From Nymphaea colorata (taxonomy: Eukaryota; Streptophyta; Magnoliopsida; Nymphaeales; Nymphaeaceae): 64,000 nucleotides of DNA. Shown here in pieces: positions 1 through 62,061 of this stretch (its first letter is position 1; each line of letters begins with the position of its first letter). The stretch is taken from assembly GCF_008831285.2 (NCBI RefSeq), contig NC_045138.2, forward strand, positions 6,541,205-6,605,204, given 5' to 3'. The notes under the pieces are model-generated. The model made no database searches. It was not told the DNA's origin and worked only from the letters and a program-made list of their open reading frames with translations. Both the position numbers and the translations under genes were made by a program.

Positions 1-1036
1 ATAGAGTTTTTATGTTTTTTCTTAAAAAAAAAACGGTTGTTAAAATGACGCATTTGTTTGAGGTTATCTCGTGACGAACAAACCAGAGGAAGAAAAAAAA
101 GATTTGACTTATTTTTTATTTTGGTTTTGATTGGAACACGTAGAAAAAGCATTTTCCTTTCTTGAGGAGTTGAGTATGGAGGATGGAGCAGGGGTGGTGG
201 GCATGATCGGTGGCAGATTAATTTGAGTTTTGGCCGTGAAGAAAAACAACACATGATTTTGGGGTTCGCTTTTATTAAATGCTTGTTACTTGTAACTAAC
301 CATGAATATGGTTCATCTCCCTTCCCCTTTAGGAGCATTTCAAATTCAGTTCGTTTTTCCTTGCATTCTTCTCACTTCACATTCACATTCTTCGATGCCA
401 GTTGTTGACTAGTTTATTTTGTCGCTCTTTGTTTGTTTGCCTTTTGTAGTTTATTTTGTATTCTTTTATTTTTTAGCTCCTTTGTCATAGTCTTTGTTAT
501 TGAATTTTTCATTTTATCGGTTATATGTGCACATATAAATAAACAGCACAGCATGTAAGCCAAAGACAAAGTGGGAGTCAAATGCTCTTTGTTGAGATCA
601 GAGACCAATTGAAATTCACTTATCGTTAAAGTGTACAGCTGATTCCCCCAATGCAACTGATAGATATGTGCTCACCTTTTACATTATTTAATAAAGGTCC
701 CCATCTATTTCAAGAAACTCCTCTGTAACTTCTATCTATAAGAAATATTAGCATTTTAATTATTTGCTGACCTTGCTGGAATGCAGTGACACTGTCGGGC
801 TCATCTGGTAAAACCAGAGAGGGAGCCCAGCAACGGAATAATGACTGTGGTCGTATGTAAAATTTTTGGAAACGAACTGAAAATTTACATAGGAGTGGGG
901 AACAAAGGTTGGAAAAAAAGGGAGGAGGCGGGGCAAAATTTTGATTATAGGGATATAAAAACCCCTCGCTCACGGATCTACCTCCAGGCCTTCTTCCCTC
1001 AAAACCAAGCTAAGATTTATGTAGGAGAGGAAGAAA
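1..1036 (+). promoter_or_regulatory. Upstream region of a MATE-type gene, copy A
   Basis: This non-coding stretch precedes the MATE start codon at 1037 and carries a TATA box at 954-960. It is repeated, with scattered differences, at 9945-10992 before a second MATE start, which shows that it belongs to the gene's promoter and leader. Positions ~85-415 also have an inverted counterpart at 1863-2347, whereas ~416-1016 has none, so the inverted copy lacks the TATA box. The region runs off the left window edge. No intact gene was seen in it. Confidence 0.6.
954..960 (+). promoter_or_regulatory. TATA box of MATE copy A
   Basis: TATAAAA sits 83 bp before the ATG at 1037, the right distance for a plant core promoter with a short 5' leader. 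The same motif in the same context occurs at 10909-10915 before MATE copy B. Confidence 0.65.
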
Positions 1037-1420
1037 ATGTGCAGGCAACCATCTCCTCCTCCAGAATCCTCCTCTTACCTTCTCTTCCCAGACAAAAATT
1101 GCCAGCTCCCCATCAAAGCCATGTCCTCCCTCTCTGACCACGATGACTCCCATAATCGTCAGCTCCCCTCGCTAGTAATCGGATTTGTAAACATAACGGG
1201 TGACTCTGTCATATCTGGCCTGGCGATGGGGATGGAGCCCTTCTGCGGCCAGGCCTACGGCACGCAGCAATGGAAGCTTCTGGACTGCTCCACAGTGGGG
1301 TGGGCTGCTCTGGCTGGCCGTGCCGACTTGCGTGTCAGTCTGCCAAGAGTGGTGATGGTATGAAATCATGGTGGTGCTCTGCGGGCTGCGGGCTGCTGGC
1401 AGACCCAAAGGAGGCGACGG
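1037..1420 (+). pseudogene. 5' fragment of a MATE (DTX) efflux transporter gene, left arm
   Basis: The frame opens at ATG 1037 and closes at TGA 1361-1363 (108 residues). The plant MATE signature is clear: IGFVNITGDSVISGLAMGMEPFCGQAYG, read as two adjoining stretches, matches the well-known ANITG...SGLAMGMEP.CGQAFG block of DTX proteins. MATE proteins are ~500-residue, 12-helix proton- or sodium-coupled exporters. Here the first transmembrane region between the proline/serine-rich N-terminus and the signature is missing, and everything after the second helix is absent, so no transporter can be made. The sequence continues, with frame changes, to about 1420, where it meets the 48-nt loop of an inverted repeat. 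It is a fragment by inspection; what its RNA might do is a separate question. Confidence 0.8.
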
Positions 1421-1468
1421 TTTCTGTGGATTTTCTGTGGTACGGCCAGGACGAAGACAGTCTCACCA
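1421..1468. other. Loop between inverted MATE arms
   Basis: These 48 bases separate 1401-1420 from its near reverse complement at 1469-1488 (ACCCAAAGG versus CCTTTGGGT cores). The loop shows no self-complementarity of its own. Confidence 0.7.
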
Positions 1469-1845
1469 CCGTCACCACCTTTGGGTCCACCATCAGCCCG
1501 CAGAACACCACCATGATTTCATAACAACTCCACTCTGGGTAGACGGACACGCAAGTCGGCACGGCCAGTGGAGCAGACCACCCCAAGGCGCAGTACAGAA
1601 ACTTCCATTGCTGCATGTCGTAGGCCTGGCCGCAGAAGGGCTCCATCCCCATCAGCAGGCAAGATATGACGGAGTAACCTGCTATGTTTGCAAATCCGAT
1701 TGCTAGCGAGGGGAGCCGACGATTATGGGAGTCATCGTGGTCGGAGAGGGAGGACGTGGCTTTGATGGGGAGCTCGTCTGGGAAGAAAAGGTAAGAGGAG
1801 GAAGCTGGAGGAGGAGATTAGATGGTGGCTTGCACATTCTCTTTT
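1469..1845 (-). pseudogene. 5' fragment of MATE transporter gene, inverted right arm
   Basis: Read on the minus strand this repeats the MATE 5' coding region of the left arm. The signature GMEPFCGQAYDMQQWK appears in an open stretch 1652-1335, and the N-terminal proline/serine-rich coding lies near 1845. It is mostly similar to the left arm (roughly 85-90% by eye), lacks a 9-bp insertion present near 1388-1396, and has its own substitutions. The upstream TATA region was lost from this arm, so it is probably not transcribed from its own promoter but could be read through from the left promoter as antisense MATE sequence. A second copy lies at 24605-24981. Confidence 0.8.
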
Positions 1846-2347
1846 CATCCTCTGCTACGTAAAACTAGTAAACAGCTGGCATCGAAGAATGTGAAAGTGA
1901 AGAGAGAAGAAAAGAATGCAAGGAAAGAGGAGCTGAATTTGAAATGCTCTTAAAGGGGAAGGGAGAAGGAGAATATTCATAGTGGCTCCTCCTCCTCCTC
2001 CTCCTTACGTTACCTTACCTTACTAAGAAAGGCAGAACCACTTGATCCTTTTCCCCTAATCAATTCACATCCTCATCCCAATCCCCATTATCATATCCAT
2101 AAGGAGCCCATTTTGCAAAACCTGCATCAACAAGTAACAAGTAACAGGCATATACTAAAAGCAAACCCCAAAGTCGTGTGTTGTTTTTCTTCAAGGCCAA
2201 AACTCAAATTAATCTGCCGCCGTTCATGCCCACCACCCCTGCTCCATCCTCCATACACATTGCCTCAAGAGAGGAAAATTCTTTTTCTACTTGTTCAAAT
2301 GAAAACCAGAAGAAAAATCAAATCAAATCTTTCTTTTCTTCCTCCAA

Positions 2348-2590
2348 AGAATCACATGCTACATGTTTTGCCCAAGATGAGGATGATTATTTCAATAAGC
2401 ACCAATCTGCAGGGGCAGTCTGATAGGCTCAAAAAGTCCAAGTAAATCATCTTTTTGTGTACACAGATAAACATTTTGACAAAAAGTTAGAAGCCTTCAG
2501 CTCTCTAGTCTTTTGTTTTGTGAATTTTACCCTTTTTTAACAAGCTAAACGGGTGAAGTTTTTTCAAGAAAAAAAATTCTCGCTTTCTTG

Positions 2591-2630
<40 letters not shown>

Positions 2631-3479
2631 GTAATAAATTTTTAATACCAGAGAAGCACCAACCCAAGATATCGAACACAATCCCCCAAAAAGAAAAACC
2701 ATCACCAGAAAGCAAGCAACGCAATATATTTCATTGGTTTGATTCCCGTAAGCACTACTCTCTGGACTGCAAACAGTGACCCCAAAATGATCACATTTTG
2801 AAAAAATTGGTTTTTGTTGATTGGTAAGTTTTTTCTTGGTGACCTTTTCTTTTCATTTTCTTCCTTTCTCAAAAGCATCAATCAGCAATGAAATACTGGA
2901 AGGGTTGGAAGTAGGAACCTTTCAAAATTGATGTTGCTTCTGAACTAATTTTATGAACATGGTTAAGAATCTAACTGGATGACAGAATTTAGCAGATTAT
3001 TCTTCTTCTTGTGGTTCTAAATCGTTTATGGTGGTGTCATTTCCAGAAACCATTTGCAAGAAACTCTTCAAAAGATCCCCATTTCTTGTCCCAGTCCTCA
3101 GAGGCTAATAACCTCTTCTCTCTTTCTCTCTAGGGGATAGGTTGGGTGCTTGCTTTTGGGGCAATAAAAATGAAAAATAGAAGACATGAAAGCATAAATA
3201 CTTTATGAAAAAGATAATAAAAAATAATGATAAACTAAAAACTGAGAAGCAAATCGAAAACATATTTGACAAACAATTTTCAACCCACTGAAAAAGCTCA
3301 TTACAACATCTCTCACTAAAAATTTCCTAAAAGAGTACGTCATTGAATCGAGTGAAGGCCCAAACCTTCACTTCTCCGATCTCAATCGTCGTAGAGTTCA
3401 GGACGACCTACTTTTGTTGTATAGGGTAACACCACCACTATACTTCAAATTTCATATCGATACATCATTACTTTTTGCA
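2348..3479. other. Gene-free AT-rich stretch
   Basis: No gene was recognised. It holds a (CT)n(TA)n microsatellite at 2591-2630 and an A-rich segment, all repeated at ~25470-26580 within the segmental duplication. Short open frames here are not conserved in length between the copies (for example 25573-25845 against its shorter counterpart), which argues against coding. Confidence 0.5.
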
Positions 3480-5587
3480 GTACAAAAATTTGATGCTACA
3501 AAAGTTTGAAACCGAGACTGACTGCTTACTGGCTCCCTCCCTCGAGAATAATATATAAATATTCAATGGATTGACTAAGTAAGAGATGAACCAATTACTT
3601 GAAATAATCTTTAGGCTGATAAGGAAGGAGAGGATTCTCCTATTTTCCTCATCACTTTCCTCCCTATATACAATTTTTTTTTTCAATTATTTAATTATTA
3701 TGGACAACATTCCGTGAAAAGTACTGCCCACTTGCCTTCACATTGTTGAGGGCAAAATTTTACAATCTTCCTTATCATTTTTCTCCATATATAATTATAT
3801 TCTTTTTCTTTATTTAATTTTTATTATAAATACTTGATGAAACAATAGTTCACTTGTTTTTAGCAATGTGTTCAAATTTTGAATCTGAAAGCAAAATGAT
3901 TCTATGAACCAGGGAATCGAATCCGAATCATTTGTGAATAAAAAGTTAATTAAATATTTATTTAGATATAAAAATTAAACAATTGAAATGTCAGTCAGAA
4001 AAAGAAGCAAAAATTTTTAAAAACTAAAAAAAAACACAATGAACTCATTTAATGGCGATTCTGCACCTGCTAGCAACATTTTTTTAATAGCAATAAAAAA
4101 CCAGTTCTTATTTAAGGTCTAATGAAATAAATTAAAACTTATTGTACGGTCTATTGAATAAAAGAAAAGGTTGAAGGGCTATTTGTACAATTTTTGGTCG
4201 TCCTTCTACCCATACATATATAAGGTGGAGCGGTGGATCCATACAAAAATCGCCAAATTTTTCATGGGCATTGAGTTGGCCTTCAGCAAACTGGTAAAGA
4301 ACCGATTTGATTCGAAATGGCCGATTCACCGATTTTAATAACACTAGTTTTTACATTGATGAGGTCGGGATTGTGATTCAAACTTCTTCATCGTTTTTCT
4401 CCATATATAATTTTATTTTTTCTCTAATTATTAATTTATATGATAAAGACTACTTGAAAATTATTGCCCACTTGTTTTCACACGATTGTGTATGAAGTGA
4501 GCTAATAAACTCTTGTTAATATAACTAAAACAAAATCAGAAATTGAATCAAATGGACCGATTCCAAAAAAGTAATAATAATGAGAAAAGGAAAAACATAT
4601 AAAAGCTTATTGAATGTTAAAAAATAAAAAAAATAAAACAATGAACAAAAAAGTAATGTGTGTCACATGGGGTAAGACGGCATTGAAATAGATTTTGGCA
4701 GAGGTAAGCAAAGATGAAACCTAGGGCACTGGCTCTCAGCTTTGGAACCATTAACGGAGCTCAACGACTCGTTTGCATGAGGAACATCGTGCGAGTGTTT
4801 TATGATTCTTACTCAAATATTGAGTTAAATTTATGAACCACTTGAATAATTTTTTCATGAATCTTCTCCAATATTTAAGGCAGATTAATAAAACAACCTC
4901 ATGCCTGACAGTTCAAAAGTACCTTTCTACATCTTATTGACAGGCAGTCCGTCCCTACTATTCTATTGTCCTATAGAAATATATCTATACCATGTGCCCT
5001 ATATAATTTACTTTTAATGTATTTTTATTTTTCTAACTTTTAATAGACTTTTACGTTTTTTTTATTTAATTACTTCGAATCAATCAATTTTTTATTTTTA
5101 GTTAATTCATGGGTAGAGTCTACCTCACTTATTATACCAAATCATGTGAAAACAAGTGGGCAGTACCTTTCATATAGTCTTCACCATAGAAATTAATTAA
5201 AATAAAAAGTGGAATTATATATAGGAGGAAAACGACCAAGAAGATTGAAAAAATCCTTTCTCCATCAATGTAAGGCAAAACCAGTGACCGATACTATTTA
5301 TGGAGTATTTATAATAGAAATTAAATGAAGAAAAAAAATAAAATTATATACAAAGAAAAATTATAAGGAAGACTAGAAAGTCTTCCCTCTCATCGATGTG
5401 AAAGCAAGTGGGTGGTACAATCTTCGTGGAGTCTTCACCATAATAATTAAGTAAATAATATATATATTTAAATGGGTGTGAATAACTTATGCCCCCCAAC
5501 CCTCCCAAAAAAAAAAAACTTTGGTTTTTCTTTCACACTCGTTGCTAAACACTTCAACCAGGACTCAGATTATTGTTAAAAAACTAT
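3480..5587. mobile_element. Foldback-like element with ~120-bp units, copy 1
   Basis: Units of ~110-120 bp recur here in two orientations. Direct units lie at about 3640-3740, 3745-3865 and 4385-4495; inverted units at about 5148-5255, 5258-5345 and 5350-5460. Each has CTCCATATATAATT near one end and a GTACTGCCCACTTG-type motif near the other. Arms built of short tandem repeats pointing inward around a unique middle (here ~3870-5150, with GAATC-rich sequence) are typical of foldback transposons. No transposase was seen. Related copies are 8640-9480 and 26580-28699. Exact termini and target duplication were not identified. Confidence 0.55.
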
Positions 5588-6439
5588 GATTTGTGAAATT
5601 AAGCCTAGTTCTCCAAACAGTACAACCTAAAAGCTTAAAAAAATTGAGAAAAAAAATTGCAAAATCGATTGAAAATGAAGAATTATGCCATATCACATAC
5701 AAGTGAAGAAAAGTCATAATATCTGAATACGAACCCAATGTTGGTCTGCTCACTTTTCCTGAAAGATATCCATTTTCATGAGCAAAAACTCAAAAAATGG
5801 ATCTTTCTAACTTGTTTGAACCAGAGCCAGAAATATATTTTTTGTGAATTTCATTTCCTTCACATTGGTACAGGGCTAACCAGATCTGGACCCATTTGTG
5901 CAATATCTGTATCTCTATTGGAATTAACGTTTGGATCAAGAAACAAATAAGAGCACCATTCACCCAGTTGTTCAACTTCAGGGGAGGTCAAGAGTTCAAA
6001 ACTGATGCGGGTGGAGAATAGGGCCTATCTAAGCTCAGCAATCATATTCTTTTTTACTTGACCAAGGGAATGAGAGGACAAGAGACAACAAAACAACATT
6101 TAACAAGAAGAGGTCCTCGTGCATCACATATATAAGAAGAAAAAAGTTACATTCTCATTCAGTTCTCATCTATTATTTCTAATTCGCTTTTACAAATTGG
6201 TATATGATTTGCAGGCAATTAACATGCCCATCTTTCGCCGTTGTTTTTTGCTTGCATTAACATAGAGAAATGTCGACGTGGACCAAAATTTGAATCTATA
6301 CTTTACAATATCTGCTTTTTCAGATATCTGTATGTCATATTTTGAATTCATGTTCCTTGCTGTCAAAGTAGAAATAAAAATATCATTATCTTTTAATGAT
6401 GTTTTCATTTGTCATATCTTACTCTCGATCCCCTAGTTT
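5588..6439. other. Gene-free AT-rich stretch
   Basis: No gene or repeat relationship was recognised. The short open frames are below 75 codons and without family features. This is the sequence beyond the right edge of segmental duplication copy 1. Confidence 0.4.
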
Positions 6440-7230
6440 GTATGGTTTTCTTTCGAGATGGCACATTGAAAGGAATGGGTGTTTGCGTGGCTGGTGATGC
6501 ATTAGAAAAGGGGGAGTGGGCTAAGTAGATTCCGGGTTTCAACCGATGGCTAGGGGGAGAAAGGAAGGGAACCGATAGAAGGGGCCAGCACTCGATCCAG
6601 AGTTAGCCGTCTACATGACTGGGCACACGTTTTAATGTGAGCACCAAGAGGAGGCTGAAGGAGATGCTTCCTTTTTTCTTTCTCTCTCTCTCTCTTTTTT
6701 CTTTGTAAAAGTTTTTTGTTTTATTTGACTGAGGCAGGCTGGGTAGCATTTTAGTGGGGAGATCTTCGTATCGGAATCTCCCGTCTCTCTTCCTCCATCT
6801 GAAATTTTATGTATTTATTTAAAAGGAAGCATAGGAAGAAATGTTTTTTTTTATATAAATGCATAAAATTTAAGATGGAGGAAGGGGGAGGGGGGATTCG
6901 AAAAAGAATATCTTTCCACCAAAGTGCTACACAGATTGGCTCAGGCAAATAAACAAAAAAAATCACAAAGATAAAAAAAAGAGTGAGAAGGAAGAAAAAA
7001 CATTTACTTGTGCCTCCACTTTCCTCTCTTGGAGCTCACATAAAAACCCGTGTCCACTCTTGTAAACTATTAGGCTGGGCTCGAGTCCCCTATACTGGTT
7101 CCTTTCTATCATTCCGCTGGCTATCGGTTGGCCCCCAACACCAATTTAACCAACTCACCCCATTGCTAATGCATCACTAGCCACACAAACACCCTTTCCT
7201 TCCATTGTGCCGTCTCGAAAGAAAATTAGG
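6440..7230. repeat. ~790-bp near-complete palindrome
   Basis: The whole segment folds back on itself about position ~6836. Outer pairing: TTTTCTTTCGAG at 6445-6456 with CTCGAAAGAAAA at 7213-7224. Inner pairing: TCCTCCATCT... at 6791 with ...AGATGGAGGA ending at 6882. Intermediate stretches (GTGGGGAGATCTTC..., TTTATTTGACTGAGGCAG...) also pair. The loop is ~20-25 nt, A/T-rich. Each arm also has a weak resemblance to a tRNA-type A box/B box pair (GGCTAGTGATGCA and GACTCGAGCCC on the minus strand), so an inverted pair of SINE-like sequences is possible but unproven. Confidence 0.7.
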
Positions 7231-8115: not shown

Positions 8116-8535
8116 ATAGTTGGTCTACAATTGATCAGGTGGAGGTTACAGGTTGATACTTATGTGAATGGTTCCACTGGAAAACTGTATGGGAATGGTT
8201 AAGCTCACTTTAATTTCAAAATTCAACAAAAATACAAGATAGTTGATCAATTATTAGTGTTATAATATAATTACAGCAGTAGCTGAGGCAACTGTAGGCT
8301 GATGTTGGCTGTTGCCGGCAGGAGCCTTTGAAAAGGCACTCAAGTAAAACCATGTGGACTCTTCAAATGTTTTTTTTTTTTTTTTTTGTACAGTACTAAA
8401 AATAACATATTACATCCTTCAGAACTATGTAAGCATTTTACTATTTATGACCTAAACAAAAAATATTTTTTTTGGTTTGAGATGAAATGGTCTAGCAAGG
8501 AGGGCTAGCTTTCTGCAATGGTATATATATATATA

Positions 8536-9944: not shown

Positions 9945-10992
9945 ATATGTATGTTTTTTTTTCAAAAAAAAAAAGGTTGATGAAATGATGCATTTGTTAG
10001 ATGTTATCCTGTGACCAACAAACCGGAGGAAGAAATAAAAGATTTGACTTGATTTTTCTTTTGGTTTTGATTCAAACACGTAGAAAAGGCATTTTACTTT
10101 CTTGAGGCGATGAGTATGGAGGATGGAGCAGTGGTGGTGGGCATGATCTGCAGCAGATTAACTTGAGTTTTGGCCGTGAAGAAAAACAACACACGATTTT
10201 GGGGCATTTCAAATGCTTGTTACTTGTTACAAACCATGAATACACTTAGTCTCCCTTCCCCTTTAGGAGCATTTCAAATTCAGTTCCTTTTTCCTTGCAT
10301 TCTTCTCGCTTCACATTCGCGTTCTTCGATGCCAGCAATTGACTAGTTTATCATGTCGCTCTTTGTTTGTTTGCTTTTTGCAGTTTATTTTGTATTCCTT
10401 TTATTTTTTAGCTCCAGTATTCCTTTTATTTTTTAGCACCTTTGTCATAATCTTTGTTGTCGAATTTTTCATTTTATCGGTTATATATGCATATATAAAT
10501 AAAAGTACAGCATGTATGCCAAAGACAAAGTGGGGAGTCGAATGCTCTTTGTTGAGATCTGAGACCAACTGAAATTCACTTATCGTTAAAGTGTACAGCC
10601 GATTCCCCTATGCAACTGATAGATATGTGGCCATCTTTTACGTTATTTACTATATGTCCCCATCTATTTCAAGAAACTCATACGTAACTTCTATCTATAA
10701 GAAATATTAGCATTTTAATCATTTGCTGACCTTGCTGGAATGCAGTGACACTGTCGGGCTCGTCTGGTAAAACCAGAGAGGGAGCCCAGCAACGGAATAA
10801 CGACGGTGGTCGTATGTAAAATTTTTTGAAAGTAACCGAAAATTTACATGGGAGCGGAGAATAAAGGTTGGAAGGGGAGGAGGCGGGGAAAAATCTTGAT
10901 CCTGGGGATATAAAAACCCCCTTGCTCACGGTTCTCCCTCCACGCCTTTTTCCCTCAAAACCAAGCTGAGATTTACGTAGGAGAGGAAGAAA
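9945..10992 (+). promoter_or_regulatory. Upstream region of MATE copy B
   Basis: It is colinear with 1-1036 (offset about 9.96 kb; for example GACCTTGCTGGAATGCAGTG is shared). It includes the stretch missing from the inverted arm of copy A, and the TATA box at 10909-10915. It carries small insertions, for example a repeated TTCCTTTTATTTTTTAGC motif near 10395-10440. Confidence 0.65.
10909..10915 (+). promoter_or_regulatory. TATA box of MATE copy B
   Basis: TATAAAA lies 84 bp before the ATG at 10993, in the same sequence context as the box at 954-960. Confidence 0.65.
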
Positions 10993-11409
10993 ATGTGCAC
11001 GCCACCATCTCCTCCTCCAGCTTCCTCCTCTTACCATCTCTTCCCAGACCAAAATCGTCAGCTCCCCATCAAAGCCACGTCCTCCCTCTCCAACCACGTT
11101 GAAGAACAGGTCCACTTGGCTTATAATGTCACATCTAATCTCAAGATCAACACTACTCCTCAATACCATCACGATAGTGCTCTCCAACCCAACCTCACCC
11201 ATTGCGCTACCCATCACTTGGTGGGAGGGAGAGAGAATGAGTCTTTTTCTTTGCATTTTAGGGAAATAGTGCCTACAAGAATCAAACCAATGACAGTTAG
11301 GTTTCCTACAAACAAGAAAAACATTTCCTGCTTATTTACCTTCTCCTGGGAAAGTCATGCCCCTCATGCAATTGCAAACCAAATTTTGCAGTTTCTCTTG
11401 AAGAATTAG
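10993..11409 (+). pseudogene. MATE 5' end, copy B, joined to unrelated sequence
   Basis: The frame of 138 residues starts MCTPPSPPPASSSYHLFPDQ, clearly the same N-terminus as copy A (MCRQPSPPPESSSYLLFPDK). Homology ends at ~11098, just before the MATE signature; the remaining ~100 residues have no recognisable domain and no membrane pattern of a MATE protein. It keeps a promoter and an open frame, so a short protein could be made, but not a transporter. The inverted partner found in copy A is absent here. Confidence 0.6.
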
Positions 11410-24277: not shown

Positions 24278-24604
24278 ACAGTTAAGAGAAAAATAAAGAG
24301 AAAAAGGTGATAGGTATTTTCATCATCTAATATTAATTTATACATTTTTCTCTCAACCATCCGTCTGCTTTAGATGGACAGCCTTAGTTAGAAATCTGGG
24401 TGACTCTATATAACAAAAATAGTTCAGTCACACACACACACACACACATAGTCCGGCTGGTCGTGCCGACTTGCGTGTCAGCCTGCGTAGAGTGGTGGTG
24501 GTATGAAATCATGGTGGTGCTCTGCGGGCTGCTGGCGGACCCAAAGGAGGCGACGGTTTCTGTGGATTTTCTGTGGTACAGCCAGGACGAAGACAGTCTC
24601 ACCA

Positions 24605-24981
24605 CCGTCACCACCTTTGGGTCCGTCCGCAGCCCGCAGAACACCACCATGATTTCATACCACCACCACTCTGGGCAGACGGACACGCAAGTCGGCACGG
24701 CCAGTGGAGCAGACCACCCCAAGGCGCAGTACAGAAGCTTCCATTGCTGCATGTCGTAGGCCTGGCCGAAGAAGGGCTCCATCCCCATCAGCAGGCCAGA
24801 TATGACGGAGTAACCTGCTATGTTTGCAAATCCGATTGCTAGCGAGGGGAGCCGACGATTATGGGAGTCATCGTGGTCGGAGAGGGAGGACGTGGCTTTG
24901 ATGGGGAGCTCGTCTGGAAAGAAAAGGTAAGAGGAGGAAGCTGGAGGAGGAAATTAGATGGTGGCTTGCACATTCTCTTTT
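24605..24981 (-). pseudogene. MATE 5' fragment, copy C
   Basis: It is equivalent to 1469-1845. On the minus strand GMEPFFGQAYDMQQWK and EIMVVFCGLRTDPKVV are read, matching the MATE signature and the start of the next extracellular segment. The N-terminal coding and TATA box are missing and the rest of the gene is absent, so it is a fragment. With the ~100-bp remnant at 24456-24556 it still forms a short imperfect hairpin. Confidence 0.75.
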
Positions 24982-26579
24982 CATCCTCTGCTACGTAAAA
25001 CTAGTAAACAGCTGGCATGGAAGAATGCAAGGAAAGAGGAGCTGAATTTGAAATGCTCTTAAAAGGGGAAGGGAGAAGGAGAATATTCATAGTGGCTCCT
25101 CATCCTCCTCCACCTTACGTTAACTTACCTTACTAACAAAGGCAGAACCGCTTGATCCTTTTCCCCTAATCAATTCAGACCCTCATCCCAATCCCCATTA
25201 TCATATCCATAAGGAACCCATTTTGCAAAACCTGCATCAACAAGTAACAAGTAACAGGCATATACTAAAAGCAAACCCCAAAGTCGTGTGTTGTTTTTCT
25301 TCAAGGCCAAAACTCAAATTAATCTGCCGCCGTTCATGCCCATCACCCCTGCTCCATCCTCCATACACATCGCCTCAAGAGAGGAAAATTCTTTTTCTAC
25401 TTGTTCGAACTAAAACCAGAAAAAAAATCAAATCAAATCTTTCTTTTCTTCCTCCAAAGAATCACATGCTACATGTTTTGCCCAAGATGAAGATGATAAA
25501 GGATATTTCAATAAGCACCAATCTGCAGGGGCAGTCTGATAGGCTCCAAAAGTCCAAGTAAAACATCTTTTTGTGTACACAGAAAAACATTTTGACAAAA
25601 AGTTAGAAGCCTTCAGCTCTCTAGTCTTTTCTTTTGTTAATTTTACCCTTTTTTTACAAGCTAAACGGATGAAGTTTTTTCAAGAAAAAAATTCTCGCTT
25701 TCATGCTCTCTCTCTCTCTCTCTCTCTATCTATATATATATATTTTAACACCAGAGAAGCACCAACCCAAGATATCGAACACAATCCCCCAAAAAGAGAA
25801 ACCACCACCAGAAAGCAAGCAACACAATATATTTCATCGGTTTGATTCCTGTAAGCACTACTCTCTGGACTGCAAACAGTGACTCAAAATGATCACATTT
25901 TGAAAAATTTGGTTTTTGTTGATTGATAAGATTTTTCTTAGTGACCTTTTCTTTTCATTTTCTTCCTTTCTCAAGAGCATCAATCAGCAATGAAATACTG
26001 GAAGGGTTGGAAGTAGGAACCTTTCAAAATTGATGTTGCTTCTGAACTAATTTTATGAACATGGTTAAGAATCTAACTGGATGACAGAATTTAGCAGATT
26101 ATTCTTCTTCTTGTGGTTCAAAATCGTTTATGGTGGTGTCATTTCCAGAAACCATTTGCAACAAACTCTTCAAAAGATCCCCATTTCTTGTCCCAGTCCT
26201 CAGAGGCTAATAACCTCTTCTCTCTCTCTCTCTCCAGGGGATAGGTTGGGTTCTTGCTTTTGGGGCATTAAAAATGAAAAATAGAAGACATGAAAGCATA
26301 AATACTTTATGAAAAAGATAATAAAAAATAATGATAAACTAAAAACTGAGAAGCAAATCGAAAACATATTTGACAAACAATTTTCAACCCACTGAAAAAG
26401 CTCATTACAACATCTCTCACTAAAAATTTCCTAAAAGAGTACGTCATTGAATCGAGTGAAGGCCCAAACCTTCACGTCTCCGATCTCAATCGTCGTAGAG
26501 TTCAGGACGACCTACTTTTGTTGTATAGGGTAACACCACCACTATACTTCAAATTTCATATCGATACATTATTACTTTT

Positions 26580-28699
26580 TGCAGTACAAAAATTTGATGC
26601 TACAAAAGTTTGAAACCGAGACTGACTGCTTAGTGGCTCCCTCCCTCAAGAATAATATATAAATATTAAATGGATTGCCTAAGGGAGAGATGAACCAATT
26701 ACTTGAAATAATCTTTAGGCTGATAAGGAAGGAGAGGATTCTCCAATTTTCCTCATCACTTTCCTCCCTATATACATTTTATTTTTTTTCAATTATTTAA
26801 TTATTATGGTCAACATTCCGTGAAAAGTACTGCCCACTTGCCTTCACATTGGTGGGGGCAAAATTTTACAATCTCCCTTACCATTTTTCTCCATATATAA
26901 TTATATTCTTTTTCTTTATTTAATTTTTATTATAAATACTTGATGAAACAATAGTTCACTTGTTTTTAGCAATGTCTTCAAATTTTGAATCTGAAAGCAA
27001 AATGATTCTATGAACCAGGGAATCCAATCCGAATCGTTTGTTAATAAAAAGTTAATTAAATATTTATTTAGATATAAAAATTAAACAATTGAAAAGTCAG
27101 TCAGGAAAAGAAGCAAAATTTTTAAAAACTAAAAAAAACACAATGAACTCATTTAATGGCGATTCTGCACCTGCTAGCAACATTTTTTTTAGTAGCAATA
27201 AAAAACCAGTTATTATTTAAGGTCTAGTGAAATAAATTAAAACTTATTGTACGGTCTATTAAATAAAAGAAAATGTTGAAGGGCTATTTGTACAATTTTT
27301 GGTCGTCCTTCTACCCATACATATATAAGGTGGAGCGGTGGATCCATACAAAAATCGCCAGATTTTTCATGGGCATTGAGTTGGCCTTCAGCAAACTGGT
27401 AAAGAACCGATTTGATTCGAAATGGCCGATTCACCGATTTTAATAACACTAGTTTTTACATTGATGAGGTTGGGATTGTGATTTAATCTTCTTCATCGTT
27501 TTTCTCCATATATAATTTTATTTTTTCTCTAATTATTAATTTATATGATAAAGACTACTTGAAAATTATTGCCCACTTGTTTTCACACGATTGTGTATGA
27601 AGTGAGCTAATAAACTCTTGTTAATATAACTAAAACAAAATCAGAAATTGAATCGAATGGACCGATTCTAAAAAAATAATAATAATAAGAAAAAGAAAAA
27701 CATATAAAAGCTTATTGAAAGTTAAAAAATAAAAAAAATAAAACAATGAACAAAAAAATAATGTGTGTCACATGGGGTAAGACGGCATTGAAATAGATTT
27801 TGGCAGAGGTAAGCAAAGATGAAACCTAGGGCATTGGCTCTCAGCTTTGGGACCATTAACGGAGCTTAATGACTCGTTTGCATGAGGAACATTGTGCGAG
27901 TGTTTTATGATTCTTACTCAAATATTGAGTTAAATTTATGAACCACTTGAATAATTTTTTCATGAATCTTCTCCAATATTTAAGGCAGATTAATAAAACA
28001 ACCTCATGTCTGACAGTTCAAAAGTGCAAAAGTGCCTTTCTACATCTTATTGACAGGCAGTCCGTCCCTACTATTCTATTGTCCTATAGAAATATATTTA
28101 TACCATGTGCCCTATATAATTTACTTTTTATGTATTTTTATTTTTCTAACTTTTAATGGACTTTTAAGTTTTTTTTATTTAATTACTTCGAATCAATCAA
28201 TTTTTTATTTTAGTTAATTCATGGGTAGAGTCTACCTCACTTATTATACCAAATCATGTGAAAACAAGTGGGCAGTACCTTTCATATAGTCTTCATCATA
28301 GAAATTAATTAAAATAAAAAGTGGAAATTATATATAGGAGGAAAACGACCAAGAAGATTGAAAAAATCCTTTCTCCATCAATGTAAGGCAAAACCAGTGA
28401 CCGATACTATTTATGGAGTATTTATAATAGAAATTAAATGAAGAAAAAAAAATAAAATTATATACAAAGAAAAATCATAAGGAAGACTAGAGAGTCTTCC
28501 CTCTCATCGATGTGAAAGCAAGTGGGTGGTACAATCTTCGTGGAGTCTTCACCATAATAATTAAGTAAATAATATATATATATTTAAATGGGTGTGAATA
28601 ACTTATGCCCCCCAACCCTCCCAAAAAAAAAACTTTGGTTTTTCTTTCCACTCGTTGCTAAACACTTCAACCAGGTCTCAAATTATTGTTAAAAAACTA
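26580..28699. mobile_element. Foldback-like element, copy 3
   Basis: This is the counterpart of 3480-5587 within segmental duplication copy 2. It has the same direct and inverted ~120-bp units with CTCCATATATAATT and TGCCCACTTG motifs and a few indels. Confidence 0.55.
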
Positions 28700-29366
28700 T
28701 GCACGGAAGGATGTAATATGCTGAAGACTCTTGCTAATATGCCGTCCTTGGAGTCCTTGAGTGTGACATGTTGTGAGCAAGTAGCCGATATGCCAGGACT
28801 CAAGTCATTGATTGTGTTCGGATCTAATATGCTGAAGACTCTTGCTAATATGCCGGCCTTGGAGTCATTGAGTGTGACATGTTGTGACAGCCTAGAGCAA
28901 GTAGCCGAGATGCCTACACTCAGGTCATTGGAGGTGGTTGGATGTAAGAGGCTGAAGACTCTGGCTCACATGCCTAACCTCTTTGACTTGAGACTAGATG
29001 GGGCGAAGGAATCAACATTTCCACCCTCCCTCAAGGATCTCTCCCAACTGGAGGAATTACGGCTCATAAATTTCACTGAAGACATCAGGCTGGGAGGCCT
29101 ATGGCAATGCCTCCCAAAACTGAAAGCCCTCTGGGTTTCTGACTTCCTGAATCTCAAGTCTCTGGTGGACGTCAATAATATTGATTACTCCCCAACAAAA
29201 CTAAACAACATGTACCACAGATGCAAAGCAACAACAGATTGCCTTCCTCTTGAAGCTTGAACACTTAGCTATTTACAGATGCCCTGCACTCTATCTGCCA
29301 CAGGAGTTAAGAGACGGTCTTGGAAACAGGTTAGAAGAAGATGATGAATGGAGCAATGTTGCTTAA
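28700..29366 (+). pseudogene. 3' end of an NLR gene (C-terminal LRRs)
   Basis: From 28700 the sequence suddenly matches the LRR repeat array and C-terminus of NLR1: NMLKTLANMPSLESL, SLEQVAEMPTLRSLEV, then LAHMPNLFDLRLDGA, LKDLSQLEELRL, FTEDIRLGG.WQCLPKLK and SLVDVNNI. A single-base loss near 29243 moves the frame, so the first frame stops at 29258-29260. The next frame continues LKLEHLAIYRCPALYLPQ and ELRDGLGNRLEEDDEWSNVA to TAA 29364-29366. That tail shows what the family's C-terminus looks like. CC, NB-ARC and most LRRs are gone, replaced by the segmental duplication. Confidence 0.85.
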
Positions 29367-41910: not shown

Positions 41911-42296
41911 GTGTGTGTGTGTTCGTGGTGTAAAAGTAGATTTTTGATATTCTCATTTTATCACATATTTATAAAAATAGTTATGCAAAAAATATTGTAG
42001 CAAAATTTTATGCTTGAATCTACTCATCTCTGGCGACGCTTGCCTATTTTTCTCTATGTAGTCCAGTATTATAAACGTGTACTTTCACTAGATTGAAGAG
42101 AAACATCCTGCTATTGAATCAAGCTAAATTGGAGATAGAAAGAGTCGTGCATGGAATTTCTTTTTTACATCAAAACCACTTCCTGCCATGTTGTTTAAAT
42201 TAAAGGGACTGAGAAAGCTGTTGCAACTACCACTCTTTCAACCTGACCTTTTTGAGAGGATGGGGGCCGAAGTCGATGGTCATTGTTGGCAGCCTG

Positions 42297-42308
42297 CTCT
42301 TTATTATT
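42297..42308 (+). promoter_or_regulatory. Weak TATA-like site before NLR1
   Basis: CTCTTTATTATT lies ~95 bp before the ATG at 42399. The aligned position before NLR2 reads CTTTATATG (61976-61984), a better TATA match ~80 bp before its ATG. Confidence 0.35.
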
Positions 42309-42398
42309 AGTTGTTGTTCTGCCTTTCTTTCCCTCCATCTAAAAATTGCTTCTCTTCCTCTGCTCTTCAATCTAGTGAGAAACAAAACAGGGGCGGAG

Positions 42399-45300
42399 AT
42401 GGCGGGAGTAATAGGTGCTCTTGCAGAGACAACTATTTCCAATCTGTTGGGCGCTGTCAACAATTTGTTGAAAGAGAAGGCGGATGTTATCTTGAATGCC
42501 AATGATGATCTAAAGAACCTACAGGAGAAGCTGAAATTTTATCAAAAGGTCATCAAAGATGCAGATTGCAAGCCCTTTTTAAGCAGCGAGCGTGACAAAG
42601 AGCTAGAGGGAGATTTCAAGGATGTTCTTTATGATGCCGAGGACATCATCGAAGAATATCGAAGCAAAATTGAGGTCACCAAGAAGGATAATGGTTCTAC
42701 TTCAACGAACAAGGTATTTAAGTGCTTTGATGAACATGCTTCTTTTCCCTTGCAACTTGGCAACGAAATCAAAAAAATCAATGAAAGGCTTGATGAAATA
42801 AAAAAGAATTGGGACATGGATCTGCTCAAACCAAAACTAAAAGAGAGTAGCCAAGACCATATTGGTGGAGAAGATGACAACCCCGGAGAGACAACCCATC
42901 ACATAGGTGCACAACCACCCATAGGCAGGGAGAATGATAAAAGGGTGATAGTAGAAAAACTCTTGTCCAATGGCTCAGGAGAGAGTTATGTTTCTATTAT
43001 CTCTATTGTAGGAGAAGGGGGGATCGGCAAGACTACTCTTGCAAAAATGGTCTTCAATGAAGTCGAACAACAGTTTGGGAAACGCAGGTGGTGGGTTTGC
43101 ATTTCTGAGAGGCCAAATCGTATGGATTTATTGCGGAAAATACTGAAGGAAGTGTGCAAGGAATCTAAAGCAAGACTTGATACTTCTTCGGTTGACTTGT
43201 GCTATGAAATACGGACAGAGCTCAGGAGGGAAAGATTTTTGCTGGTCTTAGATGACGTATGGGAACTCGATTGGTGGCAGGGAGAGGTAGAGAACACTCT
43301 CACGAGCGTTGCAACGGGGAGCAAGATTTTGATCACTAGTCGAAATATAAATGTATCCGAAGGGGTCGGAGCTTTATATATGCATAGATTGCCAATATTG
43401 CCAGAAGATGAGAGTTGGAATTTGTTTTTGAACAAGGCAGTGAGGACCGAAAATGATTTGGCGAGCCACAATTTGCAAGATATTGCAAAAAAAATAGTCA
43501 AGAAGTGTGGTGGGTTGCCACTTCTGATCCAAACAATTGGTTCCTTAATGCAAACGAAAAGCATGGAAAAAGCAGAGTGGAAGGTGATTGCGGATAGTGT
43601 GATTTGGGAATGGAAGATGCCTGCCTCATCCTCTTTCTCTCAATATGGTAACATTCTTCCTGGTCTCATACTCAGCTACAATGACTTGCCGTCTTATTTG
43701 AGGAGTTGTTTCGTTTATTGCAACATTTTTCCAAAGGATCAGGAGATTGAAAGGGAAGGATTGATCATGCAGTGGGTGGCACATGGATTGATTGAGGAAA
43801 AGGAAGAAGTAGGTGTGGAAGTGACAGCAAACCAATACATTGAAGATCTGATAAGGCGTTGCTTGATTGAAGAAACCCATGATAGATTTTATAGGGGTAT
43901 TTATGTCAAATTGCATGACATTTTGCATGACCTTGCCTCGTACATAGGTGGAAAGGAATATAGCCATGCCTCTGCTACTGAGCACACCCGCCATCTATCA
44001 TTACTTGGTGTAGACGATGCAGAAGCAGCTATGCAATGTAACACCTCAGCAGCAGCAAATAAGCTGCGGACATTATTGTTGAGTGAATACTTGTCTTCGG
44101 TGGAATTCACCAATTTCAAGTGGTTGAGGGTGTTGTCATTTAGGGGATGTCAAATGGATGAGCTACCGAACTCCATTGAATTCCTTTTACTTCTAAAATA
44201 TCTCGATCTAAGCTGGTCAGAGGTGAGACAATTGCCCAAGTCAATTGGCAAACTCTGTTACTTGCAAACATTGAATTTAAGTTATAGTAAAATTGAAGAG
44301 TTGCCTGAGGAAATGGGCAAACTGTGCAACTTGAGGTATCTTGGGCTGGAAAGAACAGATTGTTTGACATTTATTGTAGAAGGCTTGGGGAAGCTTACCA
44401 ATTTACGGACCTTGCATAGGTTTTTGATACGCGATGACAAAGGGGACACAAGAGGATGCAACATTAGAGAACTAAAAGACTTGAACAAACTGAAAGGGGA
44501 ATTGTTAATAGAAGGTTTGGGTGGGGGAAGGGTGAAAGTAATTGATGCAGAGAAAGCACAGCTTAAGGAGAAGCATGAGCTAATTGGGGTGAAATTAGAG
44601 TTCAAGTTGAACTGGGATTACAAAGTGGATAGTGATTCTCAGATGGGAGAGGATGATGAAGTGGATAGTGCTTCTGAGGTGGGAGAGAATGACAAAGTGG
44701 ATAGTGCTTCTGAGGTGGGAGAGGATGACAAAGTGGATAGTGCTTCTAATCAGAGGGGTTTGCTGGAGGCTTTGGAACCTCCACATGGAATAGAGAGGTT
44801 GGGAATTTGTGATTATGAAGGAGATAGGCCTGCATGGTATTTGGACACCAACTATGTGGAGCTGCAGACACTACAGCTGCGACGTTGCCCATTGTTGGCA
44901 ACAGTGGTAGGAATTAAATCATTGAAAAAATTGGAAGTGTACGGATGTAATATGCTGAAGACTCTTGCTAATATGCCAACCTTGGAGTCGTTGAAAGTGA
45001 GAGATTGTGGCAGCCTAGAGCAAGTAGCTGAGATGCCTGCACTCAGGTCATTGGAGGTGGGCAGATGTACTATGCTGAAGACTCTTGGTAATATGCCGAG
45101 CTTGGAGTTGTTGAAGGTGAGAGATTGTGGCAGCCTAGAGCAAGTAGCGGAGATTCCTGCAGTTAGGTCATTGGAGGTGGGCAGATGTAATATACTCAAG
45201 ACTCTTCCTAATATGCCGACCTTAGAGTCGTTGCAGGTGGATGAATGTGGCAGCCTAGAGCAAGTAGCTGAGATGCCTGCACTCAGGTCTTTGGAGGTGG

Positions 45301-46148
45301 CCGGAAATAATATGCTCAAGACTCTTACTAATATGCCGGCCTTGGCGTCATTGAAGGTGTTTGCGTGTGGCAGCCTAGAGCAAGTAGCTGAGATGCCTGC
45401 ACTCAGGTCACTGAGGGTGGTCGGATGTAATATGCTGATGACTCTGGCTAATATGCCGGCCTTGGAGTCGTTGGAGGTAGGATTTTGGGATAGCCTAGAG
45501 CAAGTAGCTAAGACACCTGCACTCATGTCATTGGAGGTGGGCGGATGTAAGATGCTGAAGACTCTTACTAATATGCCGGCCTTGGAGTCGTTGAAGGTGG
45601 ATGAAAGTGGCAGCCTAGAGCAAGTAGCTGAGATGCCTGTTCTTAAGTCATTGATTGTGTACAGATGTAACATGCTGAAGACTCTTGCTAATATGCCGGC
45701 CTTGGAGTCGTTGGAAGTGAGATTTTGTGGCAGCCTAGAGCAAGTACCTGAGATGCCTGCTCTCAAGTCGTTGGCTGCATACAATTGTGAGATGCTGAAG
45801 ACTCTTGATAATATGCTGGCCTTGGAGTGGTTGGGGGTGTACAATTGTAATATGCTGAAGACTCTTGCTAATATGCTGGCCTTGGAGTCGTTGGAAGTGA
45901 ATTATTGTGACAGCCTAGAGAAAGTAGCTGAGATGCCTGTACTCAGGAAACTGTTTGTGTACGGATCCACTATGCTGAAGACTCTTGCTATTATGCCGGC
46001 GTTAGAGTCGTTGGAGGTGAGGTATTGTGACAGCCTAGAGCAAGTAGCTGAGATGCCTGCACTCTGGTCAATGTGGGTGGAGGGATGTAATATGCTGAAG
46101 ACTCTTGCTAATATGCCGTCCTTGACGTCATTGAATGTGGCAGCCTAG
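42399..46148 (+). CDS. NLR1: CC-NB-LRR immune receptor, C-terminally frameshifted
   Basis: Cytoplasmic immune receptor of the CNL class: the NB-ARC switches from ADP to ATP when the LRR senses a pathogen effector or guarded host protein, and the CC domain triggers defence. The ORF is single-exon, 1,249 codons from the chosen ATG. Rx-type CC ~1-150, with an EDVID-like DAEDIIEEY at 79-87. NB-ARC ~175-510: P-loop VGEGGIGKTT 204-213 (Lys211), RNBS-A WWVCIS, kinase-2 FLLVLDDVW (Asp285-Asp286; the final Trp marks non-TIR), RNBS-B SKILITSR 308-315, GLPL (GGLPL 371-375), RNBS-D CFVYCNIFPKD, and LHD in place of MHD at 505-507. LRRs start ~570; an acidic 12-residue repeat lies at 743-783; residues ~850-1249 are the homogenised LRR array. 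It ends at TAG 46146-46148 after a net 10-bp loss relative to sister repeats. An upstream in-frame ATG (42276) was not chosen because the aligned NLR2 leader has none. NB-ARC motifs look functional; loss of the last ~190 residues may impair or alter recognition. Confidence 0.9.
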   Translation: MAGVIGALAETTISNLLGAVNNLLKEKADVILNANDDLKNLQEKLKFYQKVIKDADCKPFLSSERDKELEGDFKDVLYDAEDIIEEYRSKIEVTKKDNGSTSTNKVFKCFDEHASFPLQLGNEIKKINERLDEIKKNWDMDLLKPKLKESSQDHIGGEDDNPGETTHHIGAQPPIGRENDKRVIVEKLLSNGSGESYVSIISIVGEGGIGKTTLAKMVFNEVEQQFGKRRWWVCISERPNRMDLLRKILKEVCKESKARLDTSSVDLCYEIRTELRRERFLLVLDDVWELDWWQGEVENTLTSVATGSKILITSRNINVSEGVGALYMHRLPILPEDESWNLFLNKAVRTENDLASHNLQDIAKKIVKKCGGLPLLIQTIGSLMQTKSMEKAEWKVIADSVIWEWKMPASSSFSQYGNILPGLILSYNDLPSYLRSCFVYCNIFPKDQEIEREGLIMQWVAHGLIEEKEEVGVEVTANQYIEDLIRRCLIEETHDRFYRGIYVKLHDILHDLASYIGGKEYSHASATEHTRHLSLLGVDDAEAAMQCNTSAAANKLRTLLLSEYLSSVEFTNFKWLRVLSFRGCQMDELPNSIEFLLLLKYLDLSWSEVRQLPKSIGKLCYLQTLNLSYSKIEELPEEMGKLCNLRYLGLERTDCLTFIVEGLGKLTNLRTLHRFLIRDDKGDTRGCNIRELKDLNKLKGELLIEGLGGGRVKVIDAEKAQLKEKHELIGVKLEFKLNWDYKVDSDSQMGEDDEVDSASEVGENDKVDSASEVGEDDKVDSASNQRGLLEALEPPHGIERLGICDYEGDRPAWYLDTNYVELQTLQLRRCPLLATVVGIKSLKKLEVYGCNMLKTLANMPTLESLKVRDCGSLEQVAEMPALRSLEVGRCTMLKTLGNMPSLELLKVRDCGSLEQVAEIPAVRSLEVGRCNILKTLPNMPTLESLQVDECGSLEQVAEMPALRSLEVAGNNMLKTLTNMPALASLKVFACGSLEQVAEMPALRSLRVVGCNMLMTLANMPALESLEVGFWDSLEQVAKTPALMSLEVGGCKMLKTLTNMPALESLKVDESGSLEQVAEMPVLKSLIVYRCNMLKTLANMPALESLEVRFCGSLEQVPEMPALKSLAAYNCEMLKTLDNMLALEWLGVYNCNMLKTLANMLALESLEVNYCDSLEKVAEMPVLRKLFVYGSTMLKTLAIMPALESLEVRYCDSLEQVAEMPALWSMWVEGCNMLKTLANMPSLTSLNVAA
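44625..44747 (+). repeat. 36-bp tandem repeat in NLR1 (acidic spacer)
   Basis: There are three full units (44625, 44661, 44697) and a 15-bp partial, coding VDSASEVGEDDK-type repeats. It sits between the first LRR group and the repeat-rich C-terminal LRRs and probably forms a flexible acidic linker. Units 2 and 3 differ very little, so they duplicated recently. Confidence 0.85.
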
Positions 46149-61634: not shown

Positions 61635-62061
61635 CTCCAGTATTATAAGCATGTTTCACCTGATTGAAGAGAAAAACAGGTCACACTATATGGCTAATGG
61701 GTAAATTCATGTGAATGGTATAAACATCTAGAATTGGAGAAAAAAGAAGCAGCAATTTGAATGAAGCTAGTCCGGATGGGAGAAAGAGCCGCCTATGGAA
61801 TTGATGAAAGAACGTGGATACCAAGGGCTGGATATATTTTTATATTAAACCCACTTGCTGTCATGTAACATAAATTAAAAGGAGAAGAGAGAGCTGTCGC
61901 ATCTACTCTCTACCACCGGCAAGCCAACCATGTGGTGGTGGAGGTAGTTGTCAACGGTAATTCTGACAGCATGGTCTTTATATGTTGGCTATTTGCCTTT
62001 CTTCCCACACTTGAAAATTGCTTCTCTTCCTCTTGCTCCATTTATTGAGAAACCAGCAAAG
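61635..62061 (+). promoter_or_regulatory. Promoter and leader of NLR2
   Basis: CCAGTATTATAA, GATTGAAGAGAAA and AAATTAAA, then the CTTGAAAATTGCTTCTCTTCC leader, match the NLR1 upstream region 42060-42398 in order. A TTTATAT at 61977-61983 is the likely TATA box. The frame before the ATG is open back to a TAG at 61945 but contains no ATG. Confidence 0.55.

Follow-up and report, generated by a model that had tools for sequence, protein, structure and literature searches.

The nearest known case to the locus described here is GmIRCHS, the soybean I allele, in which a promoter leads into 1,087-bp pseudoCHS3 arms arranged tail to tail around a 78-bp spacer; this promoter comes from another gene, GmJ1, and silencing of its target is documented (PMC13051633). 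The inverted repeat analysed here, named hairpin A, likewise combines a promoter with a closely spaced tail-to-tail pseudogene repeat and has intact relatives in the genome. Unlike GmIRCHS, it carries the promoter of its own parent gene, has a predicted transcribed stem of about 370 bp and has been multiplied. MIR1444 arose from PPO genes by inverted duplication (PMC5223194), an origin also described for young plant miRNA genes in general (PMC3237417). Its foldback, like that of hairpin A, consists of part of the target gene copied tail to tail, but small precursors, mature reads and extra conservation of the miRNA are described for it, whereas the family of hairpin A has long stems, and no clear case of a specially conserved stretch of the MIR1444 kind was found in it.

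Two maize systems are also comparable. Mu killer, too, is an inverted duplication of partial length, and its hairpin RNA is a proposed source of siRNAs against the intact relative, as is conceivable here, but it is derived from a transposon and its transcript is described as read-through from a flanking gene (PMC3440606). Tpd1, the hairpin of Teosinte Pollen Drive, is a long non-coding hairpin with a potential host-gene match, as is hairpin A; for Tpd1, siRNAs of 22 nt, cuts in the target and a drive phenotype have been shown (PMC11390486). Among the titles listed in the literature searches, none concerned a MATE-derived hairpin, which is not proof of absence.

Hairpin A is the inverted repeat at positions 86-2344 of a 64,000-nucleotide stretch of Nymphaea colorata, referred to as the window (contig NC_045138.2, here C1; C1:6541205-6605204). 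The best account of it, which we hold to be fairly probable, is that of a pseudogene-derived inverted repeat belonging to a small hairpin family, which looks mainly like a by-product of the duplications that an unstable region undergoes. The evidence for this account and for its rivals is discussed below.

Structure and folding of the inverted repeat

Self-alignment of the window gave collinear arms at 86-1421 and 1468-2344 around a 46-nt centre. The features are listed below, where the parent is a MATE gene on contig C3, and B and H1 are further copies, all described in the following sections.

86..1421, plus strand: left arm, with distal upstream part, promoter, 5'UTR and three MATE pieces (self-alignment)
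416..1012, plus strand: part of the left arm without a right-arm partner, 597 bp, containing the TATA box (alignment)
954..960, plus strand: TATA box TATAAAA, with the same 14-nt context in the parent gene, copy B and H1
1037-1039, plus strand: MATE start codon ATG (read from the sequence)
1037..1157, plus strand: MATE piece 1, start codon and most of parent exon 1 (parent C3:24263381-24263501)
1168..1283, plus strand: MATE piece 2 (parent C3:24263919-24264034, 92% identical)
1282..1421, plus strand: MATE piece 3 (parent C3, about 24264447-24264578)
1422..1467, no strand: centre (loop), 46 nt (alignment)
1468..2344, minus strand: right arm, repeating the MATE pieces, 5'UTR and distal upstream part of the left arm in reverse, without the TATA region (alignment)
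1984..2132, minus strand: right-arm stretch without a left-arm partner, about 149 bp (alignment)

The preliminary description had placed a TATA box at 954-960 and a MATE ATG at 1037, and both were read from the sequence at these positions. It had also described sense and antisense arms of about 380 bp around a 48-nt loop; the inversion was confirmed, while the collinear arms are far longer, reaching 86 and 2344, and the alignment leaves an unpaired centre of 46 nt. The inverted MATE duplication itself is real: positions 1013-1866 align to their own reverse complement with 81% identity over 889 columns, gaps counted, and the outer blocks 86-297 and 299-415 pair with 2133-2344 (88%) and 1862-1983 (85%), respectively. 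The coding arms are 89% identical, and their divergence (K2P 0.121) is similar to that of the upstream blocks (0.129 for 86-297 and 0.121 for 299-415). By eye, the centre resembles a further MATE stretch, CGGCCAGGACGAA, in plus orientation, whose location in the parent is between pieces 2 and 3.

The predicted fold of the RNA 1020-1860 is far beyond chance, with -686 kcal/mol against a shuffle mean of -310 (z -48.7) and none of 20 shuffles as good. Folded alone, hairpin A forms 372 base pairs with a longest uninterrupted helix of 57 (G-U allowed), so the arms are predicted to be able to form the long double-stranded RNA that had been proposed. The locus was not filed as a miRNA gene. Usual miRNA precursors are far shorter than a stem of 372 pairs. 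Neither Rfam families nor tRNAs were found in the window.

PacBio RSII reads are known for palindromic artefacts. The N. colorata genome was assembled from such reads (PMC7015852), and the preliminary description had itself raised the objection that the inverted arm might be an assembly artefact. Such an artefact could stem from a palindromic read or from wrongly joined haplotypes. A read artefact, however, would yield near-identical arms, whereas those of hairpin A show 11% divergence. In addition, six other two-armed copies are found at a distance of 10.9 Mb, and the loop with both arm types recurs in copy C. The arm divergence and these independent copies make an artefact extremely unlikely.

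The loss of the TATA region from the right arm was borne out, as the 597 bp at 416-1012 remain without a partner and the promoter stands on one side only. This stretch is also present whole, or nearly so, in copy B, H1 and H6, and homology to the promoter of the parent is seen in its proximal part, from 877 on; the promoter of hairpin A and that of the parent share the same GGGATATAAAAACC. The right-arm block 1862-1983 shares 95% identity with the H1 and H6 left arms, against 85% with its own left arm, a pattern that may indicate that arms or units have undergone exchange beyond the coding stem.

Elsewhere in the window, a 160-nt inverted repeat at 6673-7000, with 8 nt between the arms and 76% complementarity, is MITE-like by eye. 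A disease-resistance type NB-ARC/LRR gene with a long tandem LRR block lies at 42213-46148 (Pfam NB-ARC, 1.6e-51), and a second NB-ARC/LRR-like frame, by resemblance only, is found at the window end (61948-64000).

Origin from a MATE transporter gene

The genome, comprising 407,766,735 bases in 783 contigs, was searched with the arm query 1037-1420, which gave 29 matches. Three of these are collinear pieces on C3 (24263381-24263501, 24263919-24264034 and about 24264447-24264578), all within an open MATE gene. The exon 2 reading frame of this gene (C3:24263749-24265254) matches Pfam MatE with an E value of 2.7e-62 and DTX14 in the PDB with 9.9e-74; with GT/AG borders placed by eye, exon 1 covers 24263381-24263527 and exon 2 begins at 24263788. 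We identify the parent as this open two-exon MATE (DETOXIFICATION-type) transporter gene, the intact paralogue that had been expected elsewhere in the genome. Further intact MATE genes on C4, C9 and C2 gave weaker matches to the arm query.

In the preliminary description the arms were taken for one continuous MATE 5' end, but they consist of three gene pieces separated by two internal deletions, corresponding to 24263502-24263918 (deletion 1) and about 24264035-24264446 (deletion 2) of the parent. The same two deletions are present, where the arms are long enough, in A, C, H1, H2, U3, H4, H5, H6 and H7. As both arms carry them, the copy that was inverted was already broken and bore its promoter. 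Neither splicing nor retroposition was accepted as the origin of the deletions, as the copies carry the promoter and the ends of deletion 1 differ from the by-eye splice sites; deletion 1 reaches from the last part of exon 1 across the intron into the first part of exon 2, and is thus genomic. Translated as MATE, the arms reach 19.8 and 17.4 bits, under the Pfam cut-off of 24.9. Hairpin A does not encode a functional MATE transporter, with full-length MatE domains missing and two internal deletions.

A lone match to the distal upstream part of the arms (317-660 at 84%) lies at C9:15084035-15084826, with none to the parent gene region; the upstream part of the arms may come from a source other than the parent.

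Scattered promoter and exon fragments are a frequent product of transposon capture, and fragments of the parent promoter and 5' exons also occur at C3:11938233-11938475 and at C5:12717382-12718221, the latter an inverted repeat of the other polarity with promoter, exon 1 and intron fragments head to head. The gene fragments of hairpin A might accordingly have been captured and inverted inside a transposable element of the Pack-MULE, Helitron or foldback type. We regard this as rather improbable: no target-site duplication is visible by eye at 86 and 2344, and for the downstream unit (2345-2900), with 40 of 96 candidates scored, long matches are confined to C1, where they fall in the two clusters and at one eroded place, unlike a dispersed element.

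The hairpin family and its history

Hairpin A is not a lone event and proved to be one of seven known two-armed hairpins. The other six are arrayed in tandem elsewhere on C1, at a distance of 10.9 Mb (C1:17395179-17435018), together with one left arm with a partial loop (U3), and truncated copies occur at both places on C1. The copies are as follows.

H1: C1 17396272 (plus)/17396681 (minus), two-armed
H2: C1 17396995 (plus)/17397329 (minus), two-armed
U3: C1 17400426 (plus), left arm and part of the loop
H4: C1 17401687 (plus)/17402076 (minus), two-armed
H5: C1 17411256 (plus)/17411666 (minus), two-armed
H6: C1 17424754 (plus)/17425169 (minus), two-armed, collinear with window -63 to 7486
H7: C1 17431344 (plus)/17431735 (minus), two-armed
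Copy B: window 9950..11102, plus strand, left-arm type with promoter and start of exon 1, no hairpin (11-1146 at 87%)
Copy C: window 24452..28701, plus strand, duplicate of 1309-5588 (95.5%, BLAST)

Folded alone, the two-armed hairpins other than A form 308-349 base pairs. Of the hairpin, copy C retains some 105 bp of left arm together with the loop and the complete right arm, and its foldback (24457-24704) has a z of -21. An LRR fragment, by resemblance only, adjoins copy C at 28598-29260. The loop query matches A, C, H2, U3, H4, H5, H6 and H7, and not H1. About 105 kb past the array, at C1:17538935-17540621, lie eroded inverted pieces of the distal upstream part, matching 1914-2188 and 1950-2206, with no MATE arm match listed.

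The promoter deletion is common to the right arms of A, C, H2, H4, H5, H6 and H7; the right arm of H1 cannot be scored for it, as it stops where H2 begins. Ahead of the left arm, the MATE promoter is present only in A, H1 and H6, as well as in copy B, and is absent in H2, U3, H4, H5 and H7; a segment matching window 8121-8511 precedes the left arms of U3, H4, H5 and H7. The 14-nt TATA context is identical in the parent, A, B and H1 and damaged in H6, leaving A and H1 as the only hairpins with an intact TATA box. The ATG of H1 is lost.

A tree was constructed from 18 rows, namely 17 arms and the parent, with copy B excluded as too short. A branch with support of 85/87, present in 82% of 200 bootstrap trees, separates the right arms from the left arms and the parent, so later duplications copied the hairpin whole. 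The mean K2P distances are 0.141 between left arms and parent, 0.157 between right arms and parent and 0.152 between left and right arms; the pseudogene therefore parted from its parent and was inverted within a short time. The arms were not homogenised. Copies A and C differ by 116 substitutions in 4,226 aligned sites, so their duplication is younger.

The history of the family is reconstructed as follows. A copy of the MATE promoter and 5' half first lost two internal blocks, and this deleted copy was then doubled tail to tail. One arm subsequently lost its promoter, and tandem and segmental duplications then multiplied the whole hairpin unit in two regions of a single chromosome. This order of deletion, inversion, promoter loss and multiplication follows from the sequence.

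Tests for selection

The arms were compared with their flanks in 15 unit pairs with flank data. The flank 2345-3000 is less diverged than the left arm in 12 of the 15 pairs and than the right arm in 13, although the pairs are not independent, the arms are richer in G+C and some misalignment is possible. Between A and H6, for example, the values are 0.148 for the left arm, 0.129 for the right arm and 0.098 for the flank 2345-6000. Because the pairs share their history and the arms are richer in G+C, this result is read only as a lack of extra conservation. CpG decay as a mark of RNA-directed methylation was also considered and rejected, since CpG transition rates are similar in arms and flanks (small samples).

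Left and right arms match at 86.8% within hairpins versus 86.2% between hairpins, and 229 of 5,040 permutations reach the within-hairpin mean. Co-evolution of the arms within hairpins would be at most marginal and is open to explanation by shared ancestry. Among 20 changes affecting both arms, seven restore the match, no clear excess, although there is no formal expectation for this count.

Of the 1,668 21-mers of hairpin A (both strands), 80 match the parent exactly, and 15-47 (of 1,062 to 1,582) do so in the seven other foldbacks. In a shuffle test that counts each gap as one event, exact parent 21-mers exceeded the shuffles at <0.05 in three of 18 arms (A right, 0.005; C left, 0.018; H6 right, 0.047). 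The same test gave no case at <0.05 among seven left-right helix runs or eight flank control blocks. Strong values for several arms, seen when gap columns were shuffled singly, mostly disappeared when a gap was treated as one event. Parent-identical stretches do not appear to be clearly over-represented in the arms.

As regards the reading frame, the right arms of A, C and H5 have frames of 160, 189 and 215 aa, respectively, open through both deletions, and one might see in them a short protein-coding gene from fused MATE pieces. The frames, however, sit on the promoterless arms and have no usable in-frame ATG: 5 bp are inserted after the ATG in A and C, and the ATG is lost in H5. The right arms of H1 and H6 contain stops, those of H2 and H4 carry frame-shifting deletions (by eye), and the left-arm frame of A ends at a stop at 1363. 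By these readings most arms have lost the frame or the start codon, and a coding gene is hardly credible. The three open right-arm frames, together with the slightly stronger pairing in cis than in trans and the three of 18 arms with excess 21-mers, are counted against pure neutrality.

Possible silencing output and significance

Long hairpin RNA is a good substrate for Dicer-like enzymes. In hairpin A, RNA read from the remaining TATA promoter would fold into a stem of about 370 base pairs, which Dicer-like enzymes would cut, and some of the resulting siRNAs would be identical to stretches of the parent mRNA. Production of some siRNAs by the locus is likely, at about an even chance; that they regulate the parent in a way maintained by selection is less likely, and on the present evidence doubtful.

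The stronger proposal is a working hairpin-RNA gene that is kept by selection and acts on the parent MATE gene as GmIRCHS does on chalcone synthase, by silencing it. The anatomy of the locus suits such a gene, with one promoter leading into a tail-to-tail repeat with a short centre, and the exact parent 21-mers in A and the other foldbacks, as well as the retention of several copies, point in the same direction. We nevertheless consider it unlikely: the arms have diverged about as much as their flanks or more, the changes in both arms restore the match without clear excess, the exact 21-mers are mostly at shuffle level, and an intact TATA box remains only in A and H1, that of H6 being damaged and H2, U3, H4, H5 and H7 being promoterless. 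As for the silencing locus of the preliminary description, the hairpin anatomy thus stood, and its maintenance by selection was not supported by arm-flank divergence, cis pairing and 21-mers.

A further possibility, to which we give little weight, is that the seven-hairpin array acts as a dosage-tunable silencing cluster for the parent transporter with built-in negative feedback. A and H1 would then be expressed where the parent is, because they carry the parent's own TATA promoter, and the promoterless siblings would be carried along or read from other promoters.

Under the account preferred here, that of a pseudogene-derived inverted repeat multiplied mainly as a by-product of duplication, the locus is a natural hairpin candidate built like GmIRCHS, on which selection was not detected. 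The family forms a well-preserved series, comprising an open parent, a deleted pseudogene, inverted duplication, promoter loss, multiplication and truncation to a short foldback (copy C), and illustrates a proposed path from gene to silencing locus. With seven hairpins and one clear parent, and lying in an early-diverging angiosperm lineage, that of Nymphaea colorata, it is suited to asking whether promoter state, stem length or divergence decides siRNA production.
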